Below, in pieces: positions 9,707 to 61,368 of a stretch of 64,000 nt of DNA (the first letter of the stretch is position 1; each line of letters opens with the position of its first letter). Source of the DNA: Methanosarcina flavescens (GTDB lineage Archaea; Halobacteriota; Methanosarcinia; Methanosarcinales; Methanosarcinaceae). The stretch spans positions 2,914,001-2,978,000 of the forward strand of contig NZ_CP032683.1 of NCBI RefSeq assembly GCF_001304615.2. Reading direction: 5' to 3'. The position numbers were made by a program, and so were the translations under genes. The notes under the pieces were generated by a model that saw only the letters and a list, made by a program, of their open reading frames with translations, did no database searches and was not told the DNA's origin.

Positions 9707-10906
9707 TTACTCTTTCCCGAAAGACTTTTTCGCGATCAGTCTCCATCCCCTGTGGTCTTTTCCCTCAAATTTTTCTACCACAGCTTCAAGCAGGGAGGGA
9801 ATGTCAAGATGCTGCGGGCATTTTTCAACACACTCCCCGCACTGTACACACTGGGAAGCATACCCGGGCACATCGCCTCTTATTATTCCGCCTGGCTTTG
9901 CCGCATACATCAACTTTGCTTCTTTCTCATTGCCTGAAAGGGAAAAATTATCATAAATCTCAAAACAGCCAGGAATGTCCACTCCAGAAGGGCAGGGTAA
10001 ACAATACCTACAGCCTGTGCAGCCTATTTTCATAAGTTCACGGTATTTTTGCTCAACTCGCTTTACAAGCTGCAGTTCAGCTTCAGTCAGGGAGTTTGGA
10101 TAAGCTTCGTCTGCAATCCTCAAGTTTTCTTCAATATGGGATTCCTCATTCATGCCTGAAAGCACAACCGTAACTTCGGGACGGTTCCACACCCAGCGAA
10201 GTCCCCATTCTGCAGGTGTACGTTTTATTTCAGCTTCGTTCCAGATCTCCTGTACCTCAGGAGGCACAGGTTTTGCCAGTTTGCCCCCACGCAGAGGCTC
10301 CATGACAATAATTCCCAGGCCCTTTGAGGCTGCATACTCAAGTCCTTCCGTTCCTGCCTGGCTCTTTTCATCCAGATAATTATACTGGATCTGGCAGAAA
10401 ATCCATGGATAGGCATCCACAATCCGCTTAAAATCCTCAATTGATCCGTGGAAAGAAAATCCCGCATTTATTATTCTGCCATCAGCCTTAGCCCTATCAA
10501 GGAAGTCTAGGACCTCAAGCTTTTCCATTTTATCCCATAAAGTCCCCACGAGCCCATGAATAAGATAATAATCAATATGATCTGTCATGAGTCTTTCAAG
10601 CTGGGAGTTCAGGATCCTGTCCATATCATCGGTATTTTTTATTGCCCAGGATGGTAGTTTTGTAGCAAGCTTAATCTTTTCCCGATATCCGCCTGCAAGC
10701 GCCCTGCCCAGGAAAGGCTCGCTTTCCCCCATGTGATACGGCCAGGCAGTGTCGATATAGTTTATTCCGTGGTCAATTGCATACCGCACCTGCCGGGTAG
10801 TCCTTTCCTCATCTATCTTTCCATCCTCTTTCACAGGAAGGCGCATGCATCCGAACCCAAGTATAGAGAGTTCATCTCCGTTCACTGGCACTTTTCTGTA
10901 CAGCAT
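9707..10906 (-). CDS. aldo/keto reductase with C-terminal 2[4Fe-4S] ferredoxin domain (paralog 1)
   Basis: The 399-aa protein has an aldo/keto reductase barrel (LGFGCMRLPV at the N-terminus, NYIDTAWPYHMGESE with catalytic Asp and Tyr, KLATKLP with Lys, YYLIHGL with His). The C-terminal ferredoxin region has two cysteine clusters, CTGCRYCLPCP and CVQCGECVEKCP. The family is common in methanogens and oxidises or reduces unknown aldehydes or ketones with electron transfer to Fe-S clusters. Start ATG 10906 is preceded by a GGGTAAT element. It is a tandem duplicate of 11288-12511, with the two barrels and Fe-S regions closely similar. Confidence 0.88.
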   Translation of the reverse strand: MLYRKVPVNGDELSILGFGCMRLPVKEDGKIDEERTTRQVRYAIDHGINYIDTAWPYHMGESEPFLGRALAGGYREKIKLATKLPSWAIKNTDDMDRILNSQLERLMTDHIDYYLIHGLVGTLWDKMEKLEVLDFLDRAKADGRIINAGFSFHGSIEDFKRIVDAYPWIFCQIQYNYLDEKSQAGTEGLEYAASKGLGIIVMEPLRGGKLAKPVPPEVQEIWNEAEIKRTPAEWGLRWVWNRPEVTVVLSGMNEESHIEENLRIADEAYPNSLTEAELQLVKRVEQKYRELMKIGCTGCRYCLPCPSGVDIPGCFEIYDNFSLSGNEKEAKLMYAAKPGGIIRGDVPGYASQCVQCGECVEKCPQHLDIPSLLEAVVEKFEGKDHRGWRLIAKKSFGKE

Positions 10907-11287
10907 TTCAATTACCCTTGCTTTTTAAGTTGTCTCCTTGACTTTTAATTTTTTCCACAAGCCTTTTGAAAAAAGGCTTGAGCGAAACCGTTGCGCCGGT
11001 TTCACGCCATCATGCCGGTTTTTGATCAAACTTTTTCCTAAAAAGTTTGCGGCGCAGCGTTTGCTCTTGGGACGGCTAATATGGGAATAAGTAAAACCGC
11101 TTTTTAATTTACTCTCTGGGTAAGTTTATAGGTAATGCTGTAATTGTTTTCCTGCTGAAAAATGTTGGGTAAAAATAAAGGACTATTTTTTCGTGCTTTC
11201 ATGATTATTAACTTTGAAATGGCTTTTTCCCGACTTTTTCCGGGGATTTTGATGTAATCAAAACAGAGTGGGATTTGTTTCCGTAGA
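10907..11287. other. spacer between paralogous reductases
   Basis: About 380 bp with no gene. It contains the palindromic repeat described at 10960-11075; the rest is AT-rich and unremarkable. Confidence 0.5.
10960..11075. repeat. dispersed palindromic intergenic repeat, copy 1
   Basis: The unit contains AGCCTTTTGAAAAAAGGCTT, GAAACC, GCGCCGGTTTCACGCC, CCGGTTTTTGATCAAACTTT and AAAAAGTTTGCGG. The same modules occur in reverse orientation at 23693-23815. Several segments can fold on themselves. It is likely a dispersed intergenic repeat of the host genome. Confidence 0.65.
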
Positions 11288-12511
11288 TTACAGATTTAAA
11301 TGGCTTTTAGCTTCCTGTTCCTTACTGAACTTTTCTCTTGCAGCATCTTTCCAGGTTTCCAGGTCGGCGCCTTCGAATTTTTGTGCAATGGTCTTCAGTA
11401 AAGCAGGTATATCCAGATGTTGAGGGCATTTTTCAAGGCATTGTTCGCACTGTACACACTGGGAGGCATAGCCAAGGACACCGTCTCTTATTATTCCACC
11501 TGGTTTTGCTGCGTACATAAGCTTGCCTTCATCTTCATCGCCCGAGAGGTATACGTTGTCATATATCTCAAAACAGCCAGGAATGTCCACGCCTGAAGGA
11601 CAGGGTAAACAGTACCTGCAACCTGTACAGCCTGTGTTCATAAGCTTGCGGTATTTTTGCTCAACTCGCTTTACAAGCTGCAGTTCAGCTTCAGTCAGGG
11701 AGTTCGGATAGGCTTCAGCTGCGATTCTCAGGTTTTCTTTAATATGGGATTCCTCATTCATGCCCGAAAGCACAACCGTAACTTCGGGATGGTTCCACAC
11801 CCAGCGAAGTCCCCATTCTGCAGGTGTACGTTTTATTTCAGCTTCGTTCCAGATTTCTTTGATCTCAGGCGGTATAAACCTTGTAAGTTTACCTCCGCGC
11901 AGGGGCTCCATGACAATAACACCCAAGTTTTTTGAGGCGGCATACTTAAGCCCTTCAATCCCTGCCTGATTCTTTCGGTCAAGGAAATTATACTGGATCT
12001 GGCAAAAACCCCAGGGATATGCATCCACAATTCGCTTGAAATCCCCAACTGACCCATGAAAAGAAAAACCAGCATTTTTAATTCGACCGTCAGCTTTCGC
12101 CCTGTCAAGGAAATCGGTTACTCCGAGGCTTTCCAGCCTGTCCCATAAAGTTCCGATAAGTGAGTGAACAAGATAATAATCGATATGGTCCGTCCTGAGT
12201 CTATCAAGCTGGGCATTCAGTATCCTGTCCATATCCTTCCTGCTCTTTATTATCCATGAGGGGAGTTTTGTAGCAAGCTTGACCTTCTCCCGATATCCGC
12301 CAGCCAGGATCCTGCCCAGGAAGGGCTCATTCTCTCCAAGATGATATGTCCACGCTGTATCGATGTAGTTCACTCCATGATCGATTGCATAATGTACCTG
12401 GCGCTTTGCCTTATCCCTGTCAATCTTCCCATCTTTAACAGAAAACCGCATGCATCCGAAACCCAGTATTGAAATCTTGTCTCCAGTCTTTGGTATCCTT
12501 CGGTAAAGTAT
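11288..12511 (-). CDS. aldo/keto reductase with C-terminal 2[4Fe-4S] ferredoxin domain (paralog 2), ATA at expected start
   Basis: This is a close paralog of 9707-10906 with the same catalytic Asp, Tyr, Lys and His (YIDTAWTYHLGENE, KLATKLP, YYLVHSL) and both cysteine clusters (CTGCRYCLPCP, CVQCEQCLEKCP). The frame continues upstream of the first ATG (12451) as LYRRIPKTGDKISILGFGC, matching the paralog's N-terminus exactly in register. The codon aligned with the paralog's ATG is ATA at 12509-12511. It lies 6 nt behind GGGGGG (12518-12523), a good Shine-Dalgarno position. Either ATA initiates weakly or the start is mutated and a shortened protein starts at 12451, losing the first beta strand. 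Confidence 0.8.
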   Translation of the reverse strand: MLYRRIPKTGDKISILGFGCMRFSVKDGKIDRDKAKRQVHYAIDHGVNYIDTAWTYHLGENEPFLGRILAGGYREKVKLATKLPSWIIKSRKDMDRILNAQLDRLRTDHIDYYLVHSLIGTLWDRLESLGVTDFLDRAKADGRIKNAGFSFHGSVGDFKRIVDAYPWGFCQIQYNFLDRKNQAGIEGLKYAASKNLGVIVMEPLRGGKLTRFIPPEIKEIWNEAEIKRTPAEWGLRWVWNHPEVTVVLSGMNEESHIKENLRIAAEAYPNSLTEAELQLVKRVEQKYRKLMNTGCTGCRYCLPCPSGVDIPGCFEIYDNVYLSGDEDEGKLMYAAKPGGIIRDGVLGYASQCVQCEQCLEKCPQHLDIPALLKTIAQKFEGADLETWKDAAREKFSKEQEAKSHLNL

Positions 12512-44611: not shown

Positions 44612-44625
44612 GATTAGTATTAATA
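44612..44625. repeat. casposon target-site duplication, left
   Basis: GATTAGTATTAATA, identical to 54846-54859. Confidence 0.9.
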
Positions 44626-44856
44626 GGGTATAGATACTCTTCGTTTTTGGGGGGTTTTATAAGATTCAATTGAATAAAAACATACTTTTCTTTTACTTCG
44701 TAATATTCTATCGTTTTTAACACAAATTTTCAAACGAGTAATACTAAAATAATGAAAACCACAATCTGGAAATAGGTAATCAAAAAGAGTTACATAAGTT
44801 TTTAAGGTAACTAGCTTTTTAATCAATCTAAATTCTACCTTTTTATTAGATTGTTT
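44626..44856. repeat. casposon left terminal inverted repeat (231 bp)
   Basis: Starts GGGTATAGATACTCTTC and aligns over its full length with the reverse complement of 54614-54845 with point changes and small indels. Shared blocks include TAACACAAATTTTCAA, GAAAACCACAATCT, ACTAGCTTTTTAATCAATCT and TTTTTATTAGATTGTTT. Confidence 0.92.
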
Positions 44857-45206
44857 GGTTGTTTGGTGATATTCAAATAAATATCTTTTTAATACTAGTA
44901 TCTTTTCTAAAATAGTTAGGCATTACCTAACTATTATAATTAATCCACTTTTTGTCAACTTGCGCTTAAATTATTTTCAAGTTAACAAATTTAAGTATGT
45001 AGGCATATGTAGTTTTCGCAAATTTTCTTAATAATTTATAATATATTCTCACATCAAAAAATCTGAATTTATATGAAATGTTTAAAATTTGCATTAATGA
45101 TTAGAAATCTAACTAATAATCGAATACTTTCACCCCGCTTCTAAGAGCTTTATATTCTCTGCGGGAATAGTAGGAGTAATGAAAGAAAGTATAGGAGATT
45201 GATAGA
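44857..45206. other. non-coding left interior of the casposon
   Basis: About 350 bp of AT-rich DNA inside the left repeat. It includes a perfect 10-bp palindrome at 44911-44935. AGGAGATTGATAGA ahead of 45207 is the ribosome binding site of the first gene. Confidence 0.55.
44911..44935. repeat. perfect palindrome inside the casposon left end
   Basis: AATAGTTAGG, loop CATTA, CCTAACTATT. A 10-bp stem could be an operator, a transcription stop or a replication signal. Confidence 0.7.
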
Positions 45207-45377
45207 ATGGTATTAAAAATATGTTTTACAGTGAAACCAAAAAGCTGTAAATTTTGTGGATCAAGCGATCTTGTGAAGAGAGGGTATGATATTACAATAC
45301 ATGGGAAGAAACAAAAGTTTGCATGTAAGGAATGTGGAAAAATTTTCTATGGTTTAAACCCTCAGGGAGTGGAATAA
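45207..45377 (+). CDS. 56-aa transposase-like zinc-ribbon protein of the casposon
   Basis: The small protein has two CxxC pairs (CKFCGSSD and CKECGKIFYG) separated by GYDITIHGKKQKFA, the pattern of small zinc ribbons found at the N-termini of transposases and in archaeal elements. Its ATG follows AGGAGATTGATAGA. It is the first gene of the casposon, overlapping or abutting the next mini-gene, and could bind DNA at the element ends. Confidence 0.75.
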   Translation: MVLKICFTVKPKSCKFCGSSDLVKRGYDITIHGKKQKFACKECGKIFYGLNPQGVE

Positions 45378-45378
45378 A

Positions 45379-45456
45379 ATGGATAAAGTTCTTATCAGAG
45401 TATTTGTAGCATGGATTCTTTTTGTTGTGTTATTTTTTGTGACAAATATAATTTGA
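45379..45456 (+). CDS. 25-aa single-pass membrane peptide of the casposon
   Basis: Starts one base after the stop of the zinc ribbon gene. The sequence has a short charged start (MDKVLIRV) and a hydrophobic core (FVAWILFVVLFFVTNII) and fits a membrane peptide. Expression is unproven. Confidence 0.45.
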   Translation: MDKVLIRVFVAWILFVVLFFVTNII

Positions 45457-45541
45457 AAAAAGTAGTCTGACTTAATTTTTCGTTGATTGAAAAATTGGCT
45501 AGCGGAAGCTTTGGTTAAATTTCAGAAAGGAGGAAAAGAAA

Positions 45542-45610
45542 ATGGAAGAAACAAAAGTTAAAATCAGATATTATAAACAAATATCCCCAGTTATCGGTAG
45601 GGGCTGTTAA
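45542..45610 (+). CDS. 22-aa mini-ORF upstream of the basic protein gene
   Basis: MEETKVKIRYYKQISPVIGR then GC and a stop, with a good Shine-Dalgarno (AAAGGAGGAAAAG) and only 2 nt before the ATG at 45613. Possibly a coupled leader for the next gene rather than a product in itself. Confidence 0.4.
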   Translation: MEETKVKIRYYKQISPVIGRGC

Positions 45611-45612
45611 TA

Positions 45613-46278
45613 ATGCCCAGACCAATTTTTTCAGCCCAATTTAGAACATATGGGGAATGGCTAAAAGCAGGCGATAGGACTTCAAAGTATGCTCAGGAAA
45701 TTATCAGAAAACACAAAGTTTTTCCAGATAGGAATTTAAAATTTTTAAATTCCTTAAAAATTTCTGATATTGATTTAAGTCTTAAACCAGTTTCAGCACT
45801 AACAGAAAAGGAATTTACAGAAAGAGGTGAAAGCCTTAAGGTGTTAAAAATAATGAGAAACGAGGGCTTAACCCTTTCAAAAAGTATTGAAAAGGCTAAA
45901 GAGTATGGCTATAACCCCTCGGAAAAGAGTGTAAGAAAAAGTTTAGGAAATGTTCTCTATAAAACCGGAAAAGGATGGAAAGCCAGAAAAACAGATCGAA
46001 TTGAGGTTAGAATGAACATTTATTCTAACGGTACAGAAGAAACAATAACATTAACAAACAGTAAAGATAGGACTTTAATTGGAAAATATTTTAATGACGT
46101 TAAGAAACTTTTGCATGGTCAACTAGACGAAAAAGCGTTTAAAAAACTCTATAGAAGGAAAGTAATCGTTGACGCAAAAGGAAATAAATGGAGTCTGGAA
46201 ACAAGTAGAAAAGACATAGAGATAATTGAAACAGCTAATCCAAACGATGTCTACAGGGTTATATATGGCACAAGATAA
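45613..46278 (+). CDS. 221-aa basic protein of the casposon, putative DNA-binding
   Basis: No recognised family. It is Lys/Arg-rich, with a possible helix-turn-helix region (LTLSKSIEKAKEYGYNPSEK, then SVRKSLGNVLYKTGKGWKAR) in the middle. The C-terminal half is beta-rich (EVRMNIYSNGTEETITLTNS). Its stop overlaps the start of the HNH gene by 14 nt. Candidate accessory replication or regulatory protein. Confidence 0.65.
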   Translation: MPRPIFSAQFRTYGEWLKAGDRTSKYAQEIIRKHKVFPDRNLKFLNSLKISDIDLSLKPVSALTEKEFTERGESLKVLKIMRNEGLTLSKSIEKAKEYGYNPSEKSVRKSLGNVLYKTGKGWKARKTDRIEVRMNIYSNGTEETITLTNSKDRTLIGKYFNDVKKLLHGQLDEKAFKKLYRRKVIVDAKGNKWSLETSRKDIEIIETANPNDVYRVIYGTR

Positions 46279-46915
46279 AAAATGTGAACTCTGCGGAGAA
46301 ACCGATAGCAGAATAATAGAATTGTATCGTATCTTTAGTAAAAACTCTCCACCTGCAATAAGGTTACTCTGCAAAAATTGTCTTTATATAACTAATCATG
46401 GACAGGACAACATTCCACGTAAAACAATAGTTGAAATCTCTGCCCCTAACAGCTTGGAAAAACTCATATTATTTATGATGGGTGGGTTTTCTCAGGTCAT
46501 TGGAGAAATTGCAGAGGCATTTGGTAACATATTGCTTGAAATGACTAAGCAACAGGAGCTAAACATAGTTCCCGAAGGGATAAACCTTGCTAAGGAACCT
46601 TATAATGTATCTCAATATACTGAAGAAGATAAAAAATGCGTCCTCTGCGGAGTAAATGACAATAGATTATTAGAAAAGCATCACACTGATGGTAAAAATT
46701 TTTCACCTAATACAGTATTACTTTGCAAAAACTGTCACTATAAAATTACTTATGAACAAAACAAAATTACACCTAAAAGAAGATCGAAAAATGCAACGAT
46801 TAACGATTTAGTAAATTTTATGTTAATAAGTGAAGGAGTTCTATTTAACGAGATGGGAAGAGTACTAAAGGATACTGGAGAAGAATTTAACAAAATTAGT
46901 AAACAAGGGGAATGA
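46265..46915 (+). CDS. double HNH-like zinc protein of the casposon
   Basis: About 216 aa with two similar CxxC...CxxC modules. The second (KCVLCGVNDN, LLEKHHTDGKNF, SPNTVLLCKNCHYKI) has the full HNH layout with His-His, Asn and His. The first (KCELCGETDS, LLCKNCLYI) keeps the zinc cysteines but lacks the His-His pair and final His, so it is probably structural. HNH proteins are common in casposons and may nick DNA. The ATG at 46265 is preferred over 46226, which overlaps the previous gene more. The polymerase gene starts 7 bp downstream. Confidence 0.82.
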   Translation: MAQDKKCELCGETDSRIIELYRIFSKNSPPAIRLLCKNCLYITNHGQDNIPRKTIVEISAPNSLEKLILFMMGGFSQVIGEIAEAFGNILLEMTKQQELNIVPEGINLAKEPYNVSQYTEEDKKCVLCGVNDNRLLEKHHTDGKNFSPNTVLLCKNCHYKITYEQNKITPKRRSKNATINDLVNFMLISEGVLFNEMGRVLKDTGEEFNKISKQGE

Positions 46916-46921
46916 TGAGGC

Positions 46922-49900
46922 ATGGAAGACAAAACAGCTTACTGTAGGGGATATATAGAAACTAAAAGAAAAAATGAGGGTAATAAAGGAAAACCATTTA
47001 TCCCAAATAAGAAAACTAAACCCCGTCATTCCAGAGTTTTAACTTTTGATACTGAAACAACTAGCGACACTTTCCAGAATTTAAAAGTAGGATATTTCGA
47101 AATTCACGAAAAAGGCATTTTGCAGGAAAGCGGATTCTTTTATAATCCTATGCCTGAGAACAATTTGGATGTAAATACCCGCTTTACCATTCCGCAAAAT
47201 ACCCTTTCACAAAATCCATTATCTTATGAAGAAGTTCAGATACTTAAAGAGTATGCAAAAAAGGAAAATATTCCCTTATACACCACAAAACAGTTTATAG
47301 AAAATATATTCTTTTATGAAGTATATGAAAAAGAAACCCTATGCAATGGGTTTAATCTTCCTTTTGACGTTTCCCGAATAGCCAGAAAAGCGGGAAATAC
47401 TGTAAAGGGAAACCCCACAAAAGGAGATATTTTATTATTATTCCCCCATATCCCAAACTCTCTAAATATAAAAATTGGTAGAATGGGTTTAGCGGAGACT
47501 ATTTCCTTTGTAAATCCTGAAACCGAAAAAGGAGAAGAAGCCCCTAGACTGAAAACTAAAGGTTACTTTTTAGACTCATCTCATTTATATAGCGTGCTCT
47601 TTGGGTCTGGCACTCAGCACTTTTCACTAAAGCAGGTATGTAAGAACCTAAAAACAGAACATCAAAAAGAAGAAGTCGAAGAACATGGAACGATAACTAA
47701 TGAATATCTCCATTATCTTCAGTGGGATGTAAAAGCAACATATGATGTTTATTGCATACTGGAAGAAACATTCAATAAATATGGTTTAACTAAAAAGGAA
47801 ATTACTAAAATTTATAGTGCAGCTTCAATAGGAAAAGCAGCTTTAAAACACTTAGGAATAAAGCCCTTTTTAGATTTAAATCCTGAATACCCTTCCATTA
47901 ACTTAGGTAGAATAATGGAAACTTATTTCGGTGGAAGGGTAGAATGTAAACTAAGGCATGAAATTAAACCAGTGGAAGTCTTAGATTTTACATCTATGTA
48001 TCCCTCTACTATCGTTTTACTTGGATTATGGGAATACATGATATCAGAAGGATATAAAGAAATAAAAGCAACAGAAGAAATTAAAAAATTTGTAGATTCA
48101 ATAACTTTAGAAGATATGGTTAATCCTGAGACATGGAAGCAATTAGTAGGTATTGTTAAGGTAAGACCAGATAAGGATATTTTACCCCTTAGAGCGGGTT
48201 ATAATGAAAATGGGGAAAAAACAGTAGGTCTTCAATACTTGACCTCAAACCATGAAATGTGGTTTGCATTGCCTGATATTGTTTCTAGTAAACTCCTTAC
48301 TGGCAAAACTCCCGAAATAATAGAGGCTTATAAATACGAAGCAGGAAGACCACAAAAAACCCTGAAATCTCAGAAAATTCTAGGGTATCAGATAAACCCG
48401 AAAAAAGATAACCTGATTAAATTCTTCGTTGAGGAAAGACAGAAAATTAAAAACGAAATGGAGAAGCTGGAAAACGAAGGAAAGCAGACTTCTCCAGAGT
48501 ATTCAGAAAAAGATGGTCTACAGTTAGCGTTAAAAATCTTATCTAATGCTCTCGGTTATGGAATATTCATAGAATTAATAACTCAAAAGACAGAAAAAAC
48601 TTTAGTAGTATGTAGGGGGGATAAAAAATTTTCTTCTATTGGCAGATCAGAGGAAGAAGGAGTATATTTTAACCCCCTGATAGGAAGCACAATAACAGCA
48701 GCTTCAAGACTTATGCTAGCAATAGCGGAGACCAAAGTGAAAGAATTGGGGAATTCTCACTATTACATGGATACGGATAGCATTTTTGTCCCGCCGGAAA
48801 TAGTGGAAGAGGTTTCAGATTTCTTTAATCCATTAAATCCTTATGAGAACGTTTCTCAACTTCTAAAAGTTGAGGATAAATTCAAAAGGGTAAAAGATGA
48901 AAAAACCGGAGAGAAAACACCTGTTCAGTATTTCTTTGGTATTTCATCTAAAAGGTATGTAGTGTTTGCACTTGATGAAAAAAACATCCCTGATATATCA
49001 AGAATGGAAGGGAAACTTCACGGAATGGGACATATAACAAACATATTCAAAGAAGAGATTACGGAAGAGGATAAGCATTGGCATCCCCTGTTATGGAAAG
49101 ATCTTATTCTTTATCATATGGGGAAACTTGACCATGAGGATATTGTCTTAAAATATGGTAACAAATTTGAAATTGCTAAAGTAGCCATCAGAACACCTAC
49201 TACACATAACAGATTTAAAACATTTAATGAAGGAAAAGAATGGGAAAAACAAATAAAGCCGTTTAATTTCTTCAATCAAGGAAACAGGAAGGATAAAGAT
49301 GTTTTTCCTATTGCACCAATGAGGAAAAACCCTCAAGAGATGGTAAAGTATCCGTTTATTGATTACATAAGCGGAGAAATAAAAGAAGGTAAAGAATACT
49401 TTAAACCAATGGATAAAACCTTCTTTGATTATTACAGGCACCCTGAAATAAAATTCGAAGGAAAAAGAGGGTTGCTTAAGCGTAGAGATATCTTTATAAC
49501 AGATATTAAAACGATAGGAAAAGAGATACCTTCAGTAGATGAGACAGGAATAGAAGCAGAGGAAGAAGAAGATATACAGGTATTTGAAGAGAAAGAGAAT
49601 CTGTTATATATTATAGAAAAAGAGTGCGAGAAAGCAGATAGAGAGGGAAAAACAAGAAAAGGGGATATTGCAAGGATTAAGAACCAAATAGAGATTTATA
49701 AAGAATATAATCCCAACGAGGAAGAATTGGCGGAATATACAGTAAGATGCTTAAGAACTTTGAAAAGGACAGGCAAAGACGTAAAAAGAAAACCTATCTT
49801 ACTAACTGACGAAAAGAGAGAAAAAGTATTGAATATGCCGGAAAAAGAGGGAAAAGAAAAAGGAATTCCTGAAAAAACTTTGCAGAAAATAAAAGCAAAA

Positions 49901-49996
49901 ATCAGAGAAGGAAAAGCCCTTAATGGTAATCTAGAAAGTACAAAGAAAATAATGGAATACATAGACAGCCAGAAAGGGGAGATAAAAATATGTTGA
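46922..49996 (+). CDS. family B DNA polymerase of the casposon
   Basis: The 1024-aa protein has the three 3'-5' exonuclease motifs (FDTETTS with D43 and E45; NGFNLPFD with D149; YLQWD with Y265 and D269). The polymerase motifs are also present: motif A VLDFTSMYPS with D355, motif B LALKILSNALGYG with K538 and Y546, and motif C YYMDTDS with D617 and D619. KRY at 677-679 is present. All catalytic residues look intact. Whether it is protein-primed cannot be told from the sequence. The C-terminal ~180 residues are Lys/Glu-rich. The 82-aa gene overlaps its end by 7 nt. It presumably copies the element. Confidence 0.93.
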   Translation: MEDKTAYCRGYIETKRKNEGNKGKPFIPNKKTKPRHSRVLTFDTETTSDTFQNLKVGYFEIHEKGILQESGFFYNPMPENNLDVNTRFTIPQNTLSQNPLSYEEVQILKEYAKKENIPLYTTKQFIENIFFYEVYEKETLCNGFNLPFDVSRIARKAGNTVKGNPTKGDILLLFPHIPNSLNIKIGRMGLAETISFVNPETEKGEEAPRLKTKGYFLDSSHLYSVLFGSGTQHFSLKQVCKNLKTEHQKEEVEEHGTITNEYLHYLQWDVKATYDVYCILEETFNKYGLTKKEITKIYSAASIGKAALKHLGIKPFLDLNPEYPSINLGRIMETYFGGRVECKLRHEIKPVEVLDFTSMYPSTIVLLGLWEYMISEGYKEIKATEEIKKFVDSITLEDMVNPETWKQLVGIVKVRPDKDILPLRAGYNENGEKTVGLQYLTSNHEMWFALPDIVSSKLLTGKTPEIIEAYKYEAGRPQKTLKSQKILGYQINPKKDNLIKFFVEERQKIKNEMEKLENEGKQTSPEYSEKDGLQLALKILSNALGYGIFIELITQKTEKTLVVCRGDKKFSSIGRSEEEGVYFNPLIGSTITAASRLMLAIAETKVKELGNSHYYMDTDSIFVPPEIVEEVSDFFNPLNPYENVSQLLKVEDKFKRVKDEKTGEKTPVQYFFGISSKRYVVFALDEKNIPDISRMEGKLHGMGHITNIFKEEITEEDKHWHPLLWKDLILYHMGKLDHEDIVLKYGNKFEIAKVAIRTPTTHNRFKTFNEGKEWEKQIKPFNFFNQGNRKDKDVFPIAPMRKNPQEMVKYPFIDYISGEIKEGKEYFKPMDKTFFDYYRHPEIKFEGKRGLLKRRDIFITDIKTIGKEIPSVDETGIEAEEEEDIQVFEEKENLLYIIEKECEKADREGKTRKGDIARIKNQIEIYKEYNPNEEELAEYTVRCLRTLKRTGKDVKRKPILLTDEKREKVLNMPEKEGKEKGIPEKTLQKIKAKIREGKALNGNLESTKKIMEYIDSQKGEIKIC

Positions 49997-50238
49997 ACAT
50001 GAATAAAAAGCCTGAACAGGAAGAAATAATCTTAATTCCCTTCTTTTTATTTCAAAGATGGTTTTATGAATTAACTTCTGAAGATTTAAAAAGATTTGAT
50101 GTTAGTTTAGTTGAATATTTAAAAGTAAGAAAACTAATTTCTACTGGGAGAATTACAAGAGTAAACGACAAAACAGTTTTCAAGTTTTTAAAAATATGTG
50201 AAAACGATCTTAAAGAAAGGGAAATTCTTAAAATATAA
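49990..50238 (+). CDS. 82-aa small protein between polymerase and Cas1
   Basis: A small protein with no recognised family (LIPFFLFQRWFYELTSEDLK, SLVEYLKVRKLISTGRITRV). It is mostly helical and has a basic middle. It overlaps the polymerase end by 7 nt behind GGGGAGATAAAAAT, so coupling is likely. Could be a polymerase or Cas1 partner; this is position-based only. Confidence 0.6.
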   Translation: MLNMNKKPEQEEIILIPFFLFQRWFYELTSEDLKRFDVSLVEYLKVRKLISTGRITRVNDKTVFKFLKICENDLKEREILKI

Positions 50239-50300
50239 ATCTCTGTTTCCTTTTATTTTTCCTGATACCTTTTTTATTTCTATACTTCCTTTTATTATGT

Positions 50301-51299
50301 ATGGGGAATCCGCTTATTTTGAATGGTTACGGCATTAAAATTACTGTTGATAATGGAAGACTTGTTATTAAAAATGGAAACAGAAGTTCAGAAGAGAAAC
50401 CAGAAAGTTATTATTTACAGCCCAATCAGAAGAAGATAACATCTATCTTAATTTATGGTCAAACTGGTTATATTTCCCTTGAAGCTTTTAAATGGATAAG
50501 TTTACAGAATATCCAGCTTAATATTTTTAATTGGGATGGAAGTTTATTATCTTCAGTCAATCAGGAAAAAGAGAATAATGGAAAAAGGAAAATTGCACAA
50601 TACGAAACCTATCTTGATGAAGATAAAAGATTAGGTATTGCAAAAAATTTGATTAAAGCAAAAATAACTAATTCTATTAAGATTTTAGATTCTTTACCGT
50701 TTCCAGTTATTGAAACTCATCTTATCGTTCCATATCTTAACGAAGTAGATAACGCAAAAGATATACCGGAATTGATGGGGTATGAAGCTACCGCCGCAAA
50801 AATCTATTGGAAGGAATTTATGAAAGCTATTCCTGAAAAATGGGGGTTTGTAGAAAGATCAGGAAGAGAATCTTCTGATTATACAAATACGATGTTAAAT
50901 TATGGGTATGCCTTACTGGAAGCTGAATGTTTAAGAATCATTAATACTGTAGGGCTTGATCCATGTATCGGCTTTTTGCATGAAATGAGAAACGAAAAGC
51001 GGAGCTTAGCATATGACCTACAGGAGATTTTTAGAGGAGAAATAGACGTAGTAGTCTATAAACTACTTTCGAAGGGCTATAGAGTTCCTAAAACAGACTT
51101 TTTGAGAATGAATAATTATTCCCTTAGATTAAGAGAGGGAGGGACAGATAAGCTAAGTAAGGCTTATGAAACCCGAATGAGTGAGAGAATAGAGTATGAA
51201 GGGAAACTCATTCCGAGAAGGAAAGTAATAGAAAGGAAAGGGTTTGAGTTAGCGGAATATGTAGAGGGAAGAAGAGAGAATATTAATTTTTTGTATTAA
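50301..51299 (+). CDS. cas1: Cas1 integrase (casposase)
   Basis: The 332-aa protein has the Cas1 fold order: an N-terminal beta domain (ILNGYGIKITVDNGRLVIKN, then ISLEAFKWISLQNIQLNIFN) and a C-terminal helical catalytic domain. Catalytic residues are E162 (MGYEATAAKIYW), H227 (GFLHEMRN) and D239/E242 (LAYDLQEIF), the Glu-His-Asp metal site of Cas1. A C-terminal tail (SERIEYEGKLIPRRKVIERK, then GFELAEY) is longer than in CRISPR Cas1 and may bind DNA. No Cas2 is present. The start at 50301 has no Shine-Dalgarno and may be read from a very short leader. Confidence 0.93.
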   Translation: MGNPLILNGYGIKITVDNGRLVIKNGNRSSEEKPESYYLQPNQKKITSILIYGQTGYISLEAFKWISLQNIQLNIFNWDGSLLSSVNQEKENNGKRKIAQYETYLDEDKRLGIAKNLIKAKITNSIKILDSLPFPVIETHLIVPYLNEVDNAKDIPELMGYEATAAKIYWKEFMKAIPEKWGFVERSGRESSDYTNTMLNYGYALLEAECLRIINTVGLDPCIGFLHEMRNEKRSLAYDLQEIFRGEIDVVVYKLLSKGYRVPKTDFLRMNNYSLRLREGGTDKLSKAYETRMSERIEYEGKLIPRRKVIERKGFELAEYVEGRRENINFLY

Positions 51300-51621
51300 A
51301 AAAGTGTAAAATATGTATGTTTTTACATTTAAATTGTAAATTTAGTAAATTTACAGTAAATTGTGTAAACCGTTATTGGACGAACGTGTAAATATTTACA
51401 ATAAAAAAGTAAAACAGTATCGGTTGAATTTTACAGGTAATGACACAAGGGAAAATGTAAAAAGTATTTAAGAATATTATTCCATGTTTTTATCTCTTTA
51501 TATGTCTGTATTTGAAGAGAGCTTAAGCTTAGGAAAAATTGGCTTTGAGAATTTAAGTTTACTAGGCATTTATTGATTCAATTAGAAATGAATTAATATT
51601 CCCTAGTGAATTACTATTTAA
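51300..51621. other. casposon spacer with clustered TGTAAA/TTTACA motifs
   Basis: About 320 bp with at least ten close copies, in both orientations, of TGTAAA or TTTACA between 51301 and 51480, including GTGTAAATATTTACA. They look like iterons or a dense regulator array. Otherwise AT-rich, with the promoter of the membrane protein gene at the right. Confidence 0.6.
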
Positions 51622-53385
51622 ATGAGTTCAAAGAGACACATTAGTAAGTTCTTAGAATTTAATAGGATATTTTTACCAAAAAATTACGAATCAATTACTA
51701 AGAACACACTTAATATACTATTATATATTTTTTTCATTATATGTTTTACGATTTTAGCTCAAATATATAAAATAGGACTTCTTATAAATGAAGAATTCTA
51801 TATTTTGTCCATTATAATAAAGATATCTGTTTATATATTTGAATTTATAATATTCATAAAAATTTTATCTTTAAGAACTAATTGGGATGCATATTTTTTA
51901 AAATGCTTACAGGTTTTATCTTGGAAACAAACGTTAGAACAACGCTGGTATTTTGCGATATCAGTCACTTATTATAGCATCTTCGGTGTAAATACAATAA
52001 TTTCTGATATTTTACAAATATTCAGTAGCCGCTATGATGTCCAGCTTTTGTTTACTCCTCAATATGGATACTTCATATCGGCTTATATAATGTTTATGCT
52101 TCTATTCTTTTTTGAAATGTTTTTTTTGTTTATAATTTTGTTTGAGGGAACTATTTCTTTATTATTTAAAAGAATAAAAAGAGCTAACAGTAGTCTTGAG
52201 AAATCAACGAAGAGTCAATTGAAATCTACAAATCTAATCTCATTTGATTACACAGATTCAAAATTATTCTTATTCGAATTTTTAATTATTTCTATTGTCT
52301 TTGCAATGATTGTGTCAGATCAAGTGAATTATTATTTTTTAGACCCATCTTTGTTTAACTATAAGCTTTTTTTAATAAGTTATTCGATTGTTTTACTCTT
52401 GTTTAGTTACATTACAATTTCTATAAACAAAATCGTATTTAATCGTTTGAATGTAAAATATTGCATGGATTTTAAAAACAATAAACAAGATATCCTTTGT
52501 TTATTTATTGGTAATTTTATTTTTGTTAATGCAATTTATTTTGCAAAGTATCTTAAAATAGCCTTAGTATATTATCCAATAGATACCAATAATTTCAATA
52601 TAATCAATATGATGTCGGAATTAATGATGCAAGCTGGAGGAATTCCATATCAAGATCCAATTAATTTGAAATTGTTAGCTCTTATAGATTATTTCATAAT
52701 TTCTATTATTTCTGCGATAGTATCATATCTTTTATATATATACCTAAATTCAACGCCCTGCTTTTTAGAACTTAAGCAAGCTGTACTAAACCGCTTTAAA
52801 AAAAGATATAGTTCTAAAGTTTCTGAAAACCCCCAATCGAAAATAATTAAAAAATCATTCTTAAAGCAGCTAAGACATCAGTTTAGAAATCCGAAAAAAG
52901 TAAAGAGCTTCAACTATTTCTTTTATATTTGTGCGTTTGGAGTTCCTTCTGTTGTCTCTGTGATCGATCTGTACTTATTAATAAATGACTCTACTTTTGG
53001 TACTAATTTTTATAGTGACCATGTGTTTAGATATCAATATGTCTTTGCTGCTTATACTGCTTTTGTCCTTTTCTTGGGTTATATTTTTACAGAAATTCGA
53101 AAAATATATAATAGTTCTTTAAGTTCTGCTTTAGACAAGAGCATGCTCAATGAATATCTAAAATTTTTTTCGATAACATTCTCTATAGCTATTTCATGTA
53201 GAATTACAATTTTTTTAAGTTGGGTTTACAGTTTATCTGAAAAATATGATGGCATTGTTGCCCCTGAAAAAATTCAAACATTTCAACTTCTTTTTTTATT
53301 TTTGGGAACAGAATATGTCTTATCAGATATATGGCCAAAGGTTGAAGATATGTTAAACAAAGTAATAGAACGAGAGAAAACATAA
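51622..53385 (+). CDS. 587-aa multi-pass membrane protein, probable casposon cargo
   Basis: No recognised family. About ten to twelve hydrophobic segments (for example ILLYIFFIICFTILAQIY, FLIISIVFAMIVSDQ, VSVIDLYLLINDS) with a charged loop region (KRIKRANSSLEKSTK) and Lys-rich cytoplasmic stretches. AT content is very high and codon use differs from the chromosomal genes. It has no casposon-core homologue known to me. It could be a transporter-like or defence-type membrane protein; not decided. Confidence 0.65.
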   Translation: MSSKRHISKFLEFNRIFLPKNYESITKNTLNILLYIFFIICFTILAQIYKIGLLINEEFYILSIIIKISVYIFEFIIFIKILSLRTNWDAYFLKCLQVLSWKQTLEQRWYFAISVTYYSIFGVNTIISDILQIFSSRYDVQLLFTPQYGYFISAYIMFMLLFFFEMFFLFIILFEGTISLLFKRIKRANSSLEKSTKSQLKSTNLISFDYTDSKLFLFEFLIISIVFAMIVSDQVNYYFLDPSLFNYKLFLISYSIVLLLFSYITISINKIVFNRLNVKYCMDFKNNKQDILCLFIGNFIFVNAIYFAKYLKIALVYYPIDTNNFNIINMMSELMMQAGGIPYQDPINLKLLALIDYFIISIISAIVSYLLYIYLNSTPCFLELKQAVLNRFKKRYSSKVSENPQSKIIKKSFLKQLRHQFRNPKKVKSFNYFFYICAFGVPSVVSVIDLYLLINDSTFGTNFYSDHVFRYQYVFAAYTAFVLFLGYIFTEIRKIYNSSLSSALDKSMLNEYLKFFSITFSIAISCRITIFLSWVYSLSEKYDGIVAPEKIQTFQLLFLFLGTEYVLSDIWPKVEDMLNKVIEREKT

Positions 53386-53517
53386 TATTCCAGCTGTGTG
53401 AGGAATCATTCTCTATAAAGTTAACGAAAGTTATTATAAATTTCTGAGATGAGTAATAACGCAACAAAATCAAAAAGAATATTTACATTATTTTCTTAAT
53501 TAACCGCGTGAGAAAAA

Positions 53518-54513
53518 TTGGAAATTGTCACTAAAGAACCATTACAGATTCTATCGCAGCTTTTGATTCCTATTATTGTTGTTATTGTAACAGGTTTTAT
53601 ACAAGTAATTTTCAAAACTTATTTAAGTCTACGTGAAAAAAACAAGTACATCAAATTATTGAAAGTTAATTTTCCTTCTGTAGAAAAATATCTAGACACA
53701 GTAAAAATTTACAAAATTATTACTGTATATTGCTCATCATACGTGTACTTTATTGTTGGCATTTTAGCAGGCTTTTTGATTGAGCTAATTTTAGTACAAG
53801 TAATTGCAAAAATATTTGACTATATTCTTGATATAAACTATATTGGAAATTTGTTAGATTTAAGTTCAGACGTGGTCATATTAAATGTTGTTGCGTTTTT
53901 TCACTCATGTTCTAACATGGGAATACTTATCGTTTTATTAATTTTTATTTCGTGGTGTAGATATCTTGGATCAAAGAAACTTTTTATTCCTAAAATTGGT
54001 GAAGATGGCGAAGTAAAATCGTCTTTTGTATATGTATCGTTTTGGGTCTTTATTGGTGTTGTTCTTGGATTGTATATAGCTATGTTTCTTTATTTTACCG
54101 CGACTCTCTATAATCTCTCAATAATTGACAATAATCTTTCATTTAATAGAGAACGATTTGATCTTGTATATAAGCATTTAATGTATTTAGGAGTTCACGT
54201 AATTGCATATATAATGGGGTTTTCTATAAGCCTTGCTTTAATAGTCGTATCATATTTTTTTGCTAAATGGTTTAATGAGAGCGTCATTAGGTCAATAACA
54301 AATTTTTATAAGCATGACCTCCCTTATGTTAAAATAAAAACCGAAACTGGAGAAATTAAAGGTCAATTTAGAGGCATTTTAGATAAATATTTAGTCACTT
54401 TAAGTGAAAATAATATATTAAAAATAGTACAATGGGATAAAATAGAAACGATGGAAATCAGCCCTAAAAATAAAAAAGAAAATTATATTTTTAATGAGGG
54501 TTTTAAAAAATAA
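53518..54513 (+). CDS. 331-aa membrane protein with C-terminal soluble domain, probable casposon cargo
   Basis: About five membrane helices (residues about 10-30, 73-100, 120-145, 175-205, 230-260) and a C-terminal beta-rich domain of about 50 residues (VKIKTETGEIKGQF, ILDKYLVTLSENNILKIVQW, DKIETMEI) that looks like a small SH3/Sm-type barrel. No recognised family. It is 132 bp downstream of the 587-aa protein, on the same strand, and may be its partner. The start is TTG behind GTGAG. Confidence 0.6.
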   Translation: MEIVTKEPLQILSQLLIPIIVVIVTGFIQVIFKTYLSLREKNKYIKLLKVNFPSVEKYLDTVKIYKIITVYCSSYVYFIVGILAGFLIELILVQVIAKIFDYILDINYIGNLLDLSSDVVILNVVAFFHSCSNMGILIVLLIFISWCRYLGSKKLFIPKIGEDGEVKSSFVYVSFWVFIGVVLGLYIAMFLYFTATLYNLSIIDNNLSFNRERFDLVYKHLMYLGVHVIAYIMGFSISLALIVVSYFFAKWFNESVIRSITNFYKHDLPYVKIKTETGEIKGQFRGILDKYLVTLSENNILKIVQWDKIETMEISPKNKKENYIFNEGFKK

Positions 54514-54613
54514 TAGATTTTATTTATTATTTTTAAGAAAGCATTATAATTGTATAAATCTAAATTAAGAAATATAAAAGTATTGAAGATATTGCTCGAG
54601 AATATCTTCATCG

Positions 54614-54845
54614 AAACAATCTAATAAAAAGACAGGATTTAGATTGATTAAAAAGCTAGTTACTTTAAAAAACTTATGTAACTCTTTTTGATTACATAGC
54701 TCTAGATTGTGGTTTTCGCTATTTTGGTGTTATCCACTTGAAAATTTGTGTTAGGGCAGGTAAAGTGTTACTAATAAAATAAAAAGTATGTTTTTATTTA
54801 TTTTAATCTTATATTACCCCTCAAAAATGAAGAGTATCTATACCC
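54614..54845. repeat. casposon right terminal inverted repeat (232 bp)
   Basis: Reverse complement of the left repeat (44626-44856) with about one-fifth of positions changed by eye; outer end ACTCTTCATTTTTGAGGGG on the other strand. Confidence 0.92.
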
Positions 54846-54859
54846 GATTAGTATTAATA
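54846..54859. repeat. casposon target-site duplication, right
   Basis: GATTAGTATTAATA, identical to 44612-44625. Confidence 0.9.
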
Positions 54860-54955: not shown

Positions 54956-55420
54956 ATGGAGTACAGCTATGACCTTACAGGAAACTATCTATGCATTGGA
55001 GAAAACCGAATACCTGCTTACAGCCTGGAAGAAAATGAGATCGGTAATTGCACCAGTTGCGATTCCATACTTATGAGCCTCAGCTACCACGCAGCAGGTG
55101 AAAAAACCGTAATTGTAACAAAATGCACTTCTTGTGGGACTTTTTATGCAAATGTCTATGATTCCGCATGGAACTGGATAGATGAGGTGCAAGTATCCCT
55201 GCTTCCAATCCCTATTCCTATAAGTAACCAGATCGTTGACGACTGGGAAGGGCTTGAGGCAATTTCTATGAAAAAGCTTGAAGCCGTCTTTTCCAGAGGA
55301 GAAATCGAAGCCCTTTTTGCCAGGGCAAATGAAGAAACCCCTGTCCGTCAATACCTGTACAGAGCCCGCAAAAAATATAAACTTTTCGAAGAAATCTTTG
55401 ATATTGAACTCGCATTTTAA
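54956..55420 (+). CDS. 154-aa zinc-ribbon hypothetical
   Basis: The protein has two CxxC pairs (IGNCTSCDSI and VTKCTSCGTF) about 30 residues apart, forming a zinc ribbon. A helical C-terminal half follows, ending in RQYLYRARKKYKLFEEIFDI. No family recognised. It starts 97 bp beyond the casposon's right target duplication. Function unknown. Confidence 0.65.
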   Translation: MEYSYDLTGNYLCIGENRIPAYSLEENEIGNCTSCDSILMSLSYHAAGEKTVIVTKCTSCGTFYANVYDSAWNWIDEVQVSLLPIPIPISNQIVDDWEGLEAISMKKLEAVFSRGEIEALFARANEETPVRQYLYRARKKYKLFEEIFDIELAF

Positions 55421-60196: not shown

Positions 60197-60210
60197 GATT
60201 AAATCAATAG

Positions 60211-60440
60211 TTATGAGTGCTCTTCATTTTTGAGGGGTTTTCTACAGTTATAAGAATAAAATATACTTTCTTTATGACTCATGCTACCTAGTTGATTTTA
60301 ATATAAATATCTAAACGGTAACGTAGAAGATAGGAAATCACAATCAGATAGATGTAATAAAAATATATTATAACTTTTCAGTGTAATCGGCTTTTTAATC
60401 CGTCTAAAATCTTTTCATTAATGTTTAACGAAGATATTCA
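60211..60440 (+). repeat. solo, diverged casposon-type terminal repeat
   Basis: The sequence from about 60211 contains TCTTCATTTTTGAGGGG, TAAAATATACTTTCTT, GAAATCACAATCAG, GGCTTTTTAATCCGTCTAAA and ACGAAGATATTC in the order and spacing of the casposon right repeat read inward. It is preceded by GATTAAATCAATAG (60197-60210), one deletion and a few changes away from the casposon target. No second end or casposon gene was found up to 64 kb. Confidence 0.7.
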
Positions 60441-60642
60441 GACCAACACTTTTGATATGGCATTTTTAGCATTAAGCATACTTCTTTTACAATTTGAAAT
60501 ACTATTTATGAATATATAATATTATTTAACTATATAAGTTTCGGAATAATAAATATTTTTTAACAAAAAGATTATCTTATTCTGAGATGTATTTAGATTA
60601 ATTTGAGAAAAAGAGTTAATAATTGGGAACTGGCATGATACT

Positions 60643-61368
60643 TTGGAAAAAGATTTCACATATATAAAATTTCCAGAAGGCACAAACAAAGTATATCTTG
60701 ATGATTTTTGTTATGAACTGGATAGAAATACTGATAGTTTGACAATAAGTTTTGAAGGTTATTTTTCCAGCTTTCCTGAAAGACTAGCTCCTTGTACGAT
60801 CTACATATTTGGCTTAGGAGGGGTTAGCATTTTAAAAATGGTAGCAATGCTTAAATCCATTTTACTGCTCTTCCTATTAATTTTAGAAATTATATTAGGA
60901 AGAAATAGCTCGCTTTCGTCAACCCTACTATTCTTTATGAGCTTGGCATTCGGTATCATCTCTTCATACATCTCTGAAATCAAGAATTACTACAACATTT
61001 CAAAGTGTGATAAGTGTGGCAGAGATTTTGCTTTCAAAGAAATTAAAGAGCCTCTTATCAAAATGGTAAGTACTTATGATAAATTCGAAAAAACAATAAC
61101 AAGATACATGAAGTGTATATATTGCAATAATGAAGAAATCAAGACAGAAATCGAATACGAGCTTTCCAAATCCAAATCAAAAAAGATTAGCAAAAATAGA
61201 AGAAATTGTAAAGAATGTGGAAAAAAGCTTGCTTTAGCAGAATACAGGCACCCTGATGTGAATATGGAATATAGGACTGTTAGAACTATCAAACACTATA
61301 AATGTATAAGTTGTGGATACATGGAAATTAGCATAAAGTACAATTACATCCCTAATTCAGCTGATTAA
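60643..61368 (+). CDS. membrane-anchored double zinc-ribbon protein
   Basis: The 241-aa protein has an N-terminal region (about 1-58), two hydrophobic segments (about 67-110), then two zinc ribbons. The first is CDKCGRDFAFKE paired with MKCIYCNNEE, the second CKECGKKLALAE paired with YKCISCGYMEI. The two ribbons look like a duplication. No family recognised. It starts at TTG with a weak Shine-Dalgarno. It lies just inside the solo casposon end and could be a relic of that element or an ordinary host gene. Confidence 0.65.
   Translation: MEKDFTYIKFPEGTNKVYLDDFCYELDRNTDSLTISFEGYFSSFPERLAPCTIYIFGLGGVSILKMVAMLKSILLLFLLILEIILGRNSSLSSTLLFFMSLAFGIISSYISEIKNYYNISKCDKCGRDFAFKEIKEPLIKMVSTYDKFEKTITRYMKCIYCNNEEIKTEIEYELSKSKSKKISKNRRNCKECGKKLALAEYRHPDVNMEYRTVRTIKHYKCISCGYMEISIKYNYIPNSAD

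Follow-up and report, generated by a model that had tools for sequence, protein, structure and literature searches.

The locus at positions 44612-54859 of the window (the whole 64,000-nucleotide stretch of DNA that was analysed) raises the question of how a Cas1-type casposase without a C-terminal HTH domain finds its integration site, and whether the element that encodes it could move. The CRISPR adaptation module is proposed to descend from casposons. In the transition from casposase to Cas1-Cas2, the way in which a Cas1 without an HTH locates its site is the step left open (PMC6977970). The element, of ~10 kb and carried by a Methanosarcina chromosome, is a complete casposon and, as such, of a known kind; the reading favoured here, with a probability of roughly 0.87, is that it is complete and probably mobile, and that its casposase targets one conserved chromosomal site.

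The features of the casposon superfamily that are present comprise a Cas1 with intact catalytic residues, adjoining PolB and outside a CRISPR-cas operon, the gene of this family B DNA polymerase, terminal inverted repeats (TIRs) with a target-site duplication (TSD), and an empty site in relatives. The TSD, GATTAGTATTAATA, lies at 44612..44625 on the left and at 54846..54859 on the right (both plus strand); the two copies match each other exactly over 14 bp and are the only exact copies in the 3.28-Mb genome. Within the window, they are also the only sites at most one mismatch from the genus consensus GATTAATATTAATA (chance expectation 0.10), and the right copy with the following GGTTTATAACC forms part of a target conserved throughout the genus. 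Inside the duplications lie the left TIR (44626..44857, plus strand), which begins GGGTATAGATACTCTTC, and the right TIR (54614..54845, minus strand). An earlier note on this DNA had claimed a complete casposon between these limits, with identical 14-bp flanks and TIRs of 231/232 bp. Its coordinates are exact, as is the match of the flanks; TSD, TIRs, Cas1 and PolB were all found again, and its casposon reading agrees with the single target copy at empty sites and with the casposon grouping of Cas1 and PolB. The TIR length also holds, but the note was silent on the imperfection of the arms: 44626-44857 and the reverse complement of 54614-54845 are 84% identical over 231-232 bp, with a perfect match in the outer 17 bp (GGGTATAGATACTCTTC) only and weaker similarity further in.

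All genes of the element are on the plus strand of the host genome (3,283,688 bases, a single contig). A 56-aa zinc-ribbon protein (45207..45377) carries an IS1/IS1595-type Zn-binding domain (NCBIfam NF050000, E=2.5e-7, above the cut-off). It is followed by a 221-aa casposon core protein (45613..46278) with phmmer matches up to 1e-44 in related casposon loci, where its homologue sits before HNH-PolB; Pfam and NCBIfam searches gave no match for it, and it probably corresponds to a published HTH core protein. The HNH endonuclease (46226..46915; PHROG HNH 4e-7, casposon HNH 6e-22) is tandem-duplicated through a 167-nt direct repeat, 70% identical, in which the C-terminal copy retains the HNH motif (EKHH...NTVLLCKNCH) and the N-terminal copy is degenerate. 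This block of 221-aa protein, HNH and PolB is common to casposons of Methanosarcinaceae and beyond. In PolB (46922..49996), the exonuclease motifs (ExoI FDTETT, ExoII NGFNLPFD, ExoIII YLQWDVKATYD) and the polymerase motifs (Pol A DFTSMYPS, Pol B KILSNALGYG, Pol C YYMDTDSIF) align with those of other casposon PolBs, which upholds the claim that all of them are present; the protein as a whole also matches casposon PolBs. Its Pfam match is weak (4.6e-6) because the window PolB is divergent. An extra stretch of about 60-70 aa is inserted ahead of a C-terminal HTH-like tail, the latter seen by alignment only and with a weak profile score.

Downstream of cas1 lies the cargo, a 587-aa multi-pass membrane protein (51622..53385) with homologues in two other genomes (G026 and G002) and a 331-aa multi-pass membrane protein with a TTG start (53518..54513), whose model (pLDDT 53) was too poor for a structure search. 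The genome also holds a paralogue of the 587-aa protein that is at most 50% identical and split into two frames (L139 7193-8937, G000:C1:222192-223903); no other casposon gene was found around it in the 16 kb fetched. In the relic of Methanosarcina sp. DH2 (G020, NZ_WJBI01000001.1; locus L022), a repeat-rich, TPR-like gene was noticed by eye at 10640-12500, where the window has its membrane-protein cargo, and the cargo seems to differ between copies.

The Cas1 casposase (332 aa, 50301..51299; Pfam PF01867, E=7e-62) groups in the Cas1 trees with casposon Cas1, apart from CRISPR Cas1 (support 99/99 and 99/98), as a check of the earlier reading had called for. Its closest comparison is family 2 of Methanosarcinaceae, which includes M. 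mazei MetMaz-C1 with its crystallised casposase (6OPM). The likeness extends to Cas1 (about 42-47% identical), a 14-bp TSD, the shared genes for the 221-aa protein, HNH and PolB, TIR tips that end in CCC-3', and the C-terminal HTH-like tail of PolB. The window element differs in that its Cas1 lacks the HTH, its TSD contains no CGCA and lies elsewhere than at tRNA-Leu, its HNH is duplicated, its PolB is about 100 aa longer and its cargo is another. The gene order differs as well: in the ten related loci fetched, cas1 is upstream of the 221-aa/HNH/PolB block, on the opposite strand in nine of them and in the direction of the block in the tenth (L115), whereas in the window it follows PolB on the same strand. 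Without a Cas1 HTH, the element lacks a defining feature of family 2. Family 4, as described in PMC6614799 and PMC9939771, has a casposase without the C-terminal HTH and an intergenic target, and is reported from Methanosarcina mazei. The window element shares both traits and, by these published traits, fits this family best, a placement that carries modest confidence. It is possible, if somewhat doubtful, that the element is instead a family-2 casposon that lost its HTH and changed its target; the common 221-aa/HNH/PolB block and the PolB tail would suit such an origin, but the window Cas1 falls outside all HTH-bearing Cas1 in both trees, although its separation from L109, the deepest-branching of these, lacks strong support (93/92).

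The target is an intergenic site and not a tRNA gene, and is without the CGCA motif seen with M. mazei casposons; a tRNA-gene target was considered and rejected, as the two tRNA genes of the window (32252 and 42854) are not at the element ends. When both flanks were joined through one TSD and searched in the genus, matches running through the junction were found in G029 (93%), G018, G012, G003, G005, G011 and others. The nearest relative, G029, has a single copy of GATTAGTATTAATA at the empty site, and since empty-site relatives carry one target copy, the flanks are indeed duplicated in the window. An alignment at the junction shows the target as AAAAAGGG|GATTAATATTAATA|GGTTTATAACC or near it in most genomes. 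Eleven of the 14 positions are invariant across 21 relatives, and a perfect 12-bp palindrome in the consensus GATTAATATTAATA is centred exactly on the middle of the TSD. Just to the right of the TSD is TTTATAA, about 90 bp ahead of the ATG of a 154-aa zinc-ribbon-like host gene (54956..55420, plus strand), which marks the site in relatives. The motif looks like a TATA box, in which case the core promoter would stay where it is after insertion. Six further occurrences of GATTARTATTAATA with one mismatch exist in the genome, none with a TIR in the left-TIR search, so flanking sequence must matter too. The derived base (G) of GATTAGTATTAATA is found only in both TSD copies of the window and in G029. 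Because both copies carry the base shared with G029, the insertion is later than this base change; on these sequences the window insertion is judged young, and the sister species G029 either never had it or lost it precisely.

The element is apparently intact, and from its sequence its own mobility is plausible. The catalytic residues E162, H227, D239 and E242 of Cas1, which the earlier note had given as intact, are identical in 20/20 aligned relatives. The protein ends, however, 62-72 residues short of all 20 intact casposon Cas1 from related genomes, every one of which carries a conserved C-terminal HTH domain there (about 400-420 aa vs 332 aa). The idea of an HTH concealed beyond the Cas1 stop codon or in another part of the element was rejected: an HTH profile run against the whole element in six frames gave nothing significant, the best, insignificant match being the PolB tail. 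Directly upstream of cas1, an 82-aa helical protein (49990..50238, plus strand; also in the DH2 relic, 58%) is a weak lead as possibly a small DNA-binding protein. As an HTH acting in trans, it was set aside: Foldseek/VIA matches of its single-sequence AlphaFold model (pLDDT 80) to AcrIIA15 and Aca11, with Z about 4, are not significant and lie within noise.

The absence of the HTH allows for a defective casposon that lost an essential part of its Cas1 and is immobile, or mobile only via another casposase. The domain is present in 20/20 intact relatives; in M. mazei it is essential for integration, and the casposase cut after residue 341 does not integrate (PMC6977970), so that a relative without the HTH might have no activity, or might depend on a partner. 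Against this, the Cas1 relics of two other genomes, DH2 (L022) and G002 (L124), stop at the same residue as the window Cas1 (FLY* and FQY*), which makes the end point a feature of the lineage and not a fresh truncation. According to the literature, casposons of families 1, 3 and 4 also lack the Cas1 HTH, and a family-1 casposase, that of Ca. N. koreensis, integrates in vitro (PMC6614799). The insertion is young by the derived base, and the host genome has no other casposon Cas1 and only one CRISPR-like Cas1. A defect of this kind is considered unlikely. Some Cas1 fragments in G010, G022, G024, G049 and G056 have higher identity but were rejected as members of the same lineage, being closer to family 2. 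Viral contigs searched with PolB, Cas1 and the TIR tips yielded nothing, and plasmids yielded only distant Cas1 matches (<60% identity), the annotated ones among the matches listed being CRISPR cas1.

The site has been occupied in other Methanosarcina. When the left TIR was searched against the genus, eight genomes besides the window's own gave a match; in seven of these (G002, G006, G008, G016, G020, G026 and G028) it abuts the target site, while the 31-nt match in G005 lies elsewhere. The same TIR end is at the target site in G004, as seen in alignment. A related TIR end therefore abuts the target in eight other genomes, as relics, one mini-element and one Cas1 relic, and 9/25 genomes with the locus are occupied, the window included. 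In DH2, the relic retains its two ends together with Cas1 remains (88% identical) and a portion of the 82-aa gene. It is oriented like the window element; orientation is readable for these two elements only. The mini-element, in G026, measures about 0.85 kb and has a TIR at each end and a TSD that matches at 13/14 positions. In G002, the insert is 4.4 kb long and likewise has both TIRs; it holds two transposase-like genes but neither Cas1 nor PolB. The transposase-like genes were noticed by eye (L078 6868-9762), and the insert looks like a gutted casposon into which IS elements have moved. A 2016 study by Krupovic reportedly described isolated casposon TIRs (solo TIRs) in the genomes of M. mazei; the short TIR-bearing remnants at the window's site in G004, G006, G008 and G026 resemble them.

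On a host tree built from three flanking genes, occupancy is scattered about as random labels would be (7 parsimony changes vs a shuffled mean of 7.6; the alternative is one gain and 10 losses). A single ancient insertion in the genus ancestor, followed by vertical descent with decay or precise excision and leaving the window copy as the last intact survivor, would agree with the same site, the same orientation where readable and a Cas1 divergence from DH2 similar to that of the hosts, but it is quite improbable, as it needs at least 10 precise losses vs 7 gains, and the derived base in both window TSD copies and the G029 empty site would require the same change in both copies. Fourfold sites were compared to judge a possible recent transfer between DH2 and the window lineage: the DH2 and window Cas1 are 62% identical at these sites and host genes 44-73%; with a divergence about that of host genes, some relics could be old shared insertions and not separate hits.

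A complete, probably mobile casposon with one conserved target would operate as follows, the integration chemistry and excision being carried over from published work on the M. mazei and A. boonei casposons. In that work, the casposase acts as a tetramer through 3'-OH attack by CCC-ending tips (M. mazei), with a 14-bp stagger, and excision of MetMaz-C1 to a single target copy was shown (PMC10359463). The Cas1-type casposase would bind the TIR tips (ending ...CTATACCC-3') and join them, 14 bp apart, to the palindrome-centred GATTAATATTAATA just upstream of the putative core promoter; gap repair would yield the 14-bp TSD, the element's own PolB would copy the element, and precise excision could restore the empty site. 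Without a casposase HTH, the site might be recognised through the near symmetry of the target and through its flanks, possibly with the aid of the PolB tail, of the 221-aa protein, of the 82-aa protein or of a host factor. More tentatively, the HTH-less lineage may home repeatedly, in one orientation, to a single non-tRNA site found genus-wide and spawn non-autonomous mini-casposons, with the target chosen by symmetry and flanks or by a partner DNA-binding protein. CRISPR Cas1-Cas2 also has no HTH of its own, and the targeting proposed for the HTH-less casposon lineage would be closer to it.

Beyond the known kind of element, two things are of interest: an attachment site that is conserved and repeatedly used, and a naturally occurring enzyme that lacks the HTH and has a defined target. 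The genus-wide site, which may be new, preserves in nature a history of how elements inserted, decayed and gave rise to mini-elements. For this natural casposase, the native target and the ends are defined and an empty site has been sequenced, so that HTH-less site finding is directly testable.

Two minor observations concern remnants. In G002, the Cas1 tail named above (L124 6658-6720) is the third of the window lineage, ends at the same residue without the HTH and lies about 15 kb from the target site. In the window itself, a degenerate TIR-like sequence at 60206-60680 (69% to the left TIR) stands beside the target-like GATTAAATCAATA, 5.4 kb from the intact casposon; its interior is similar to the G026 mini-element, G029 has it too at the syntenic position, and it is probably an old mini-casposon relic.
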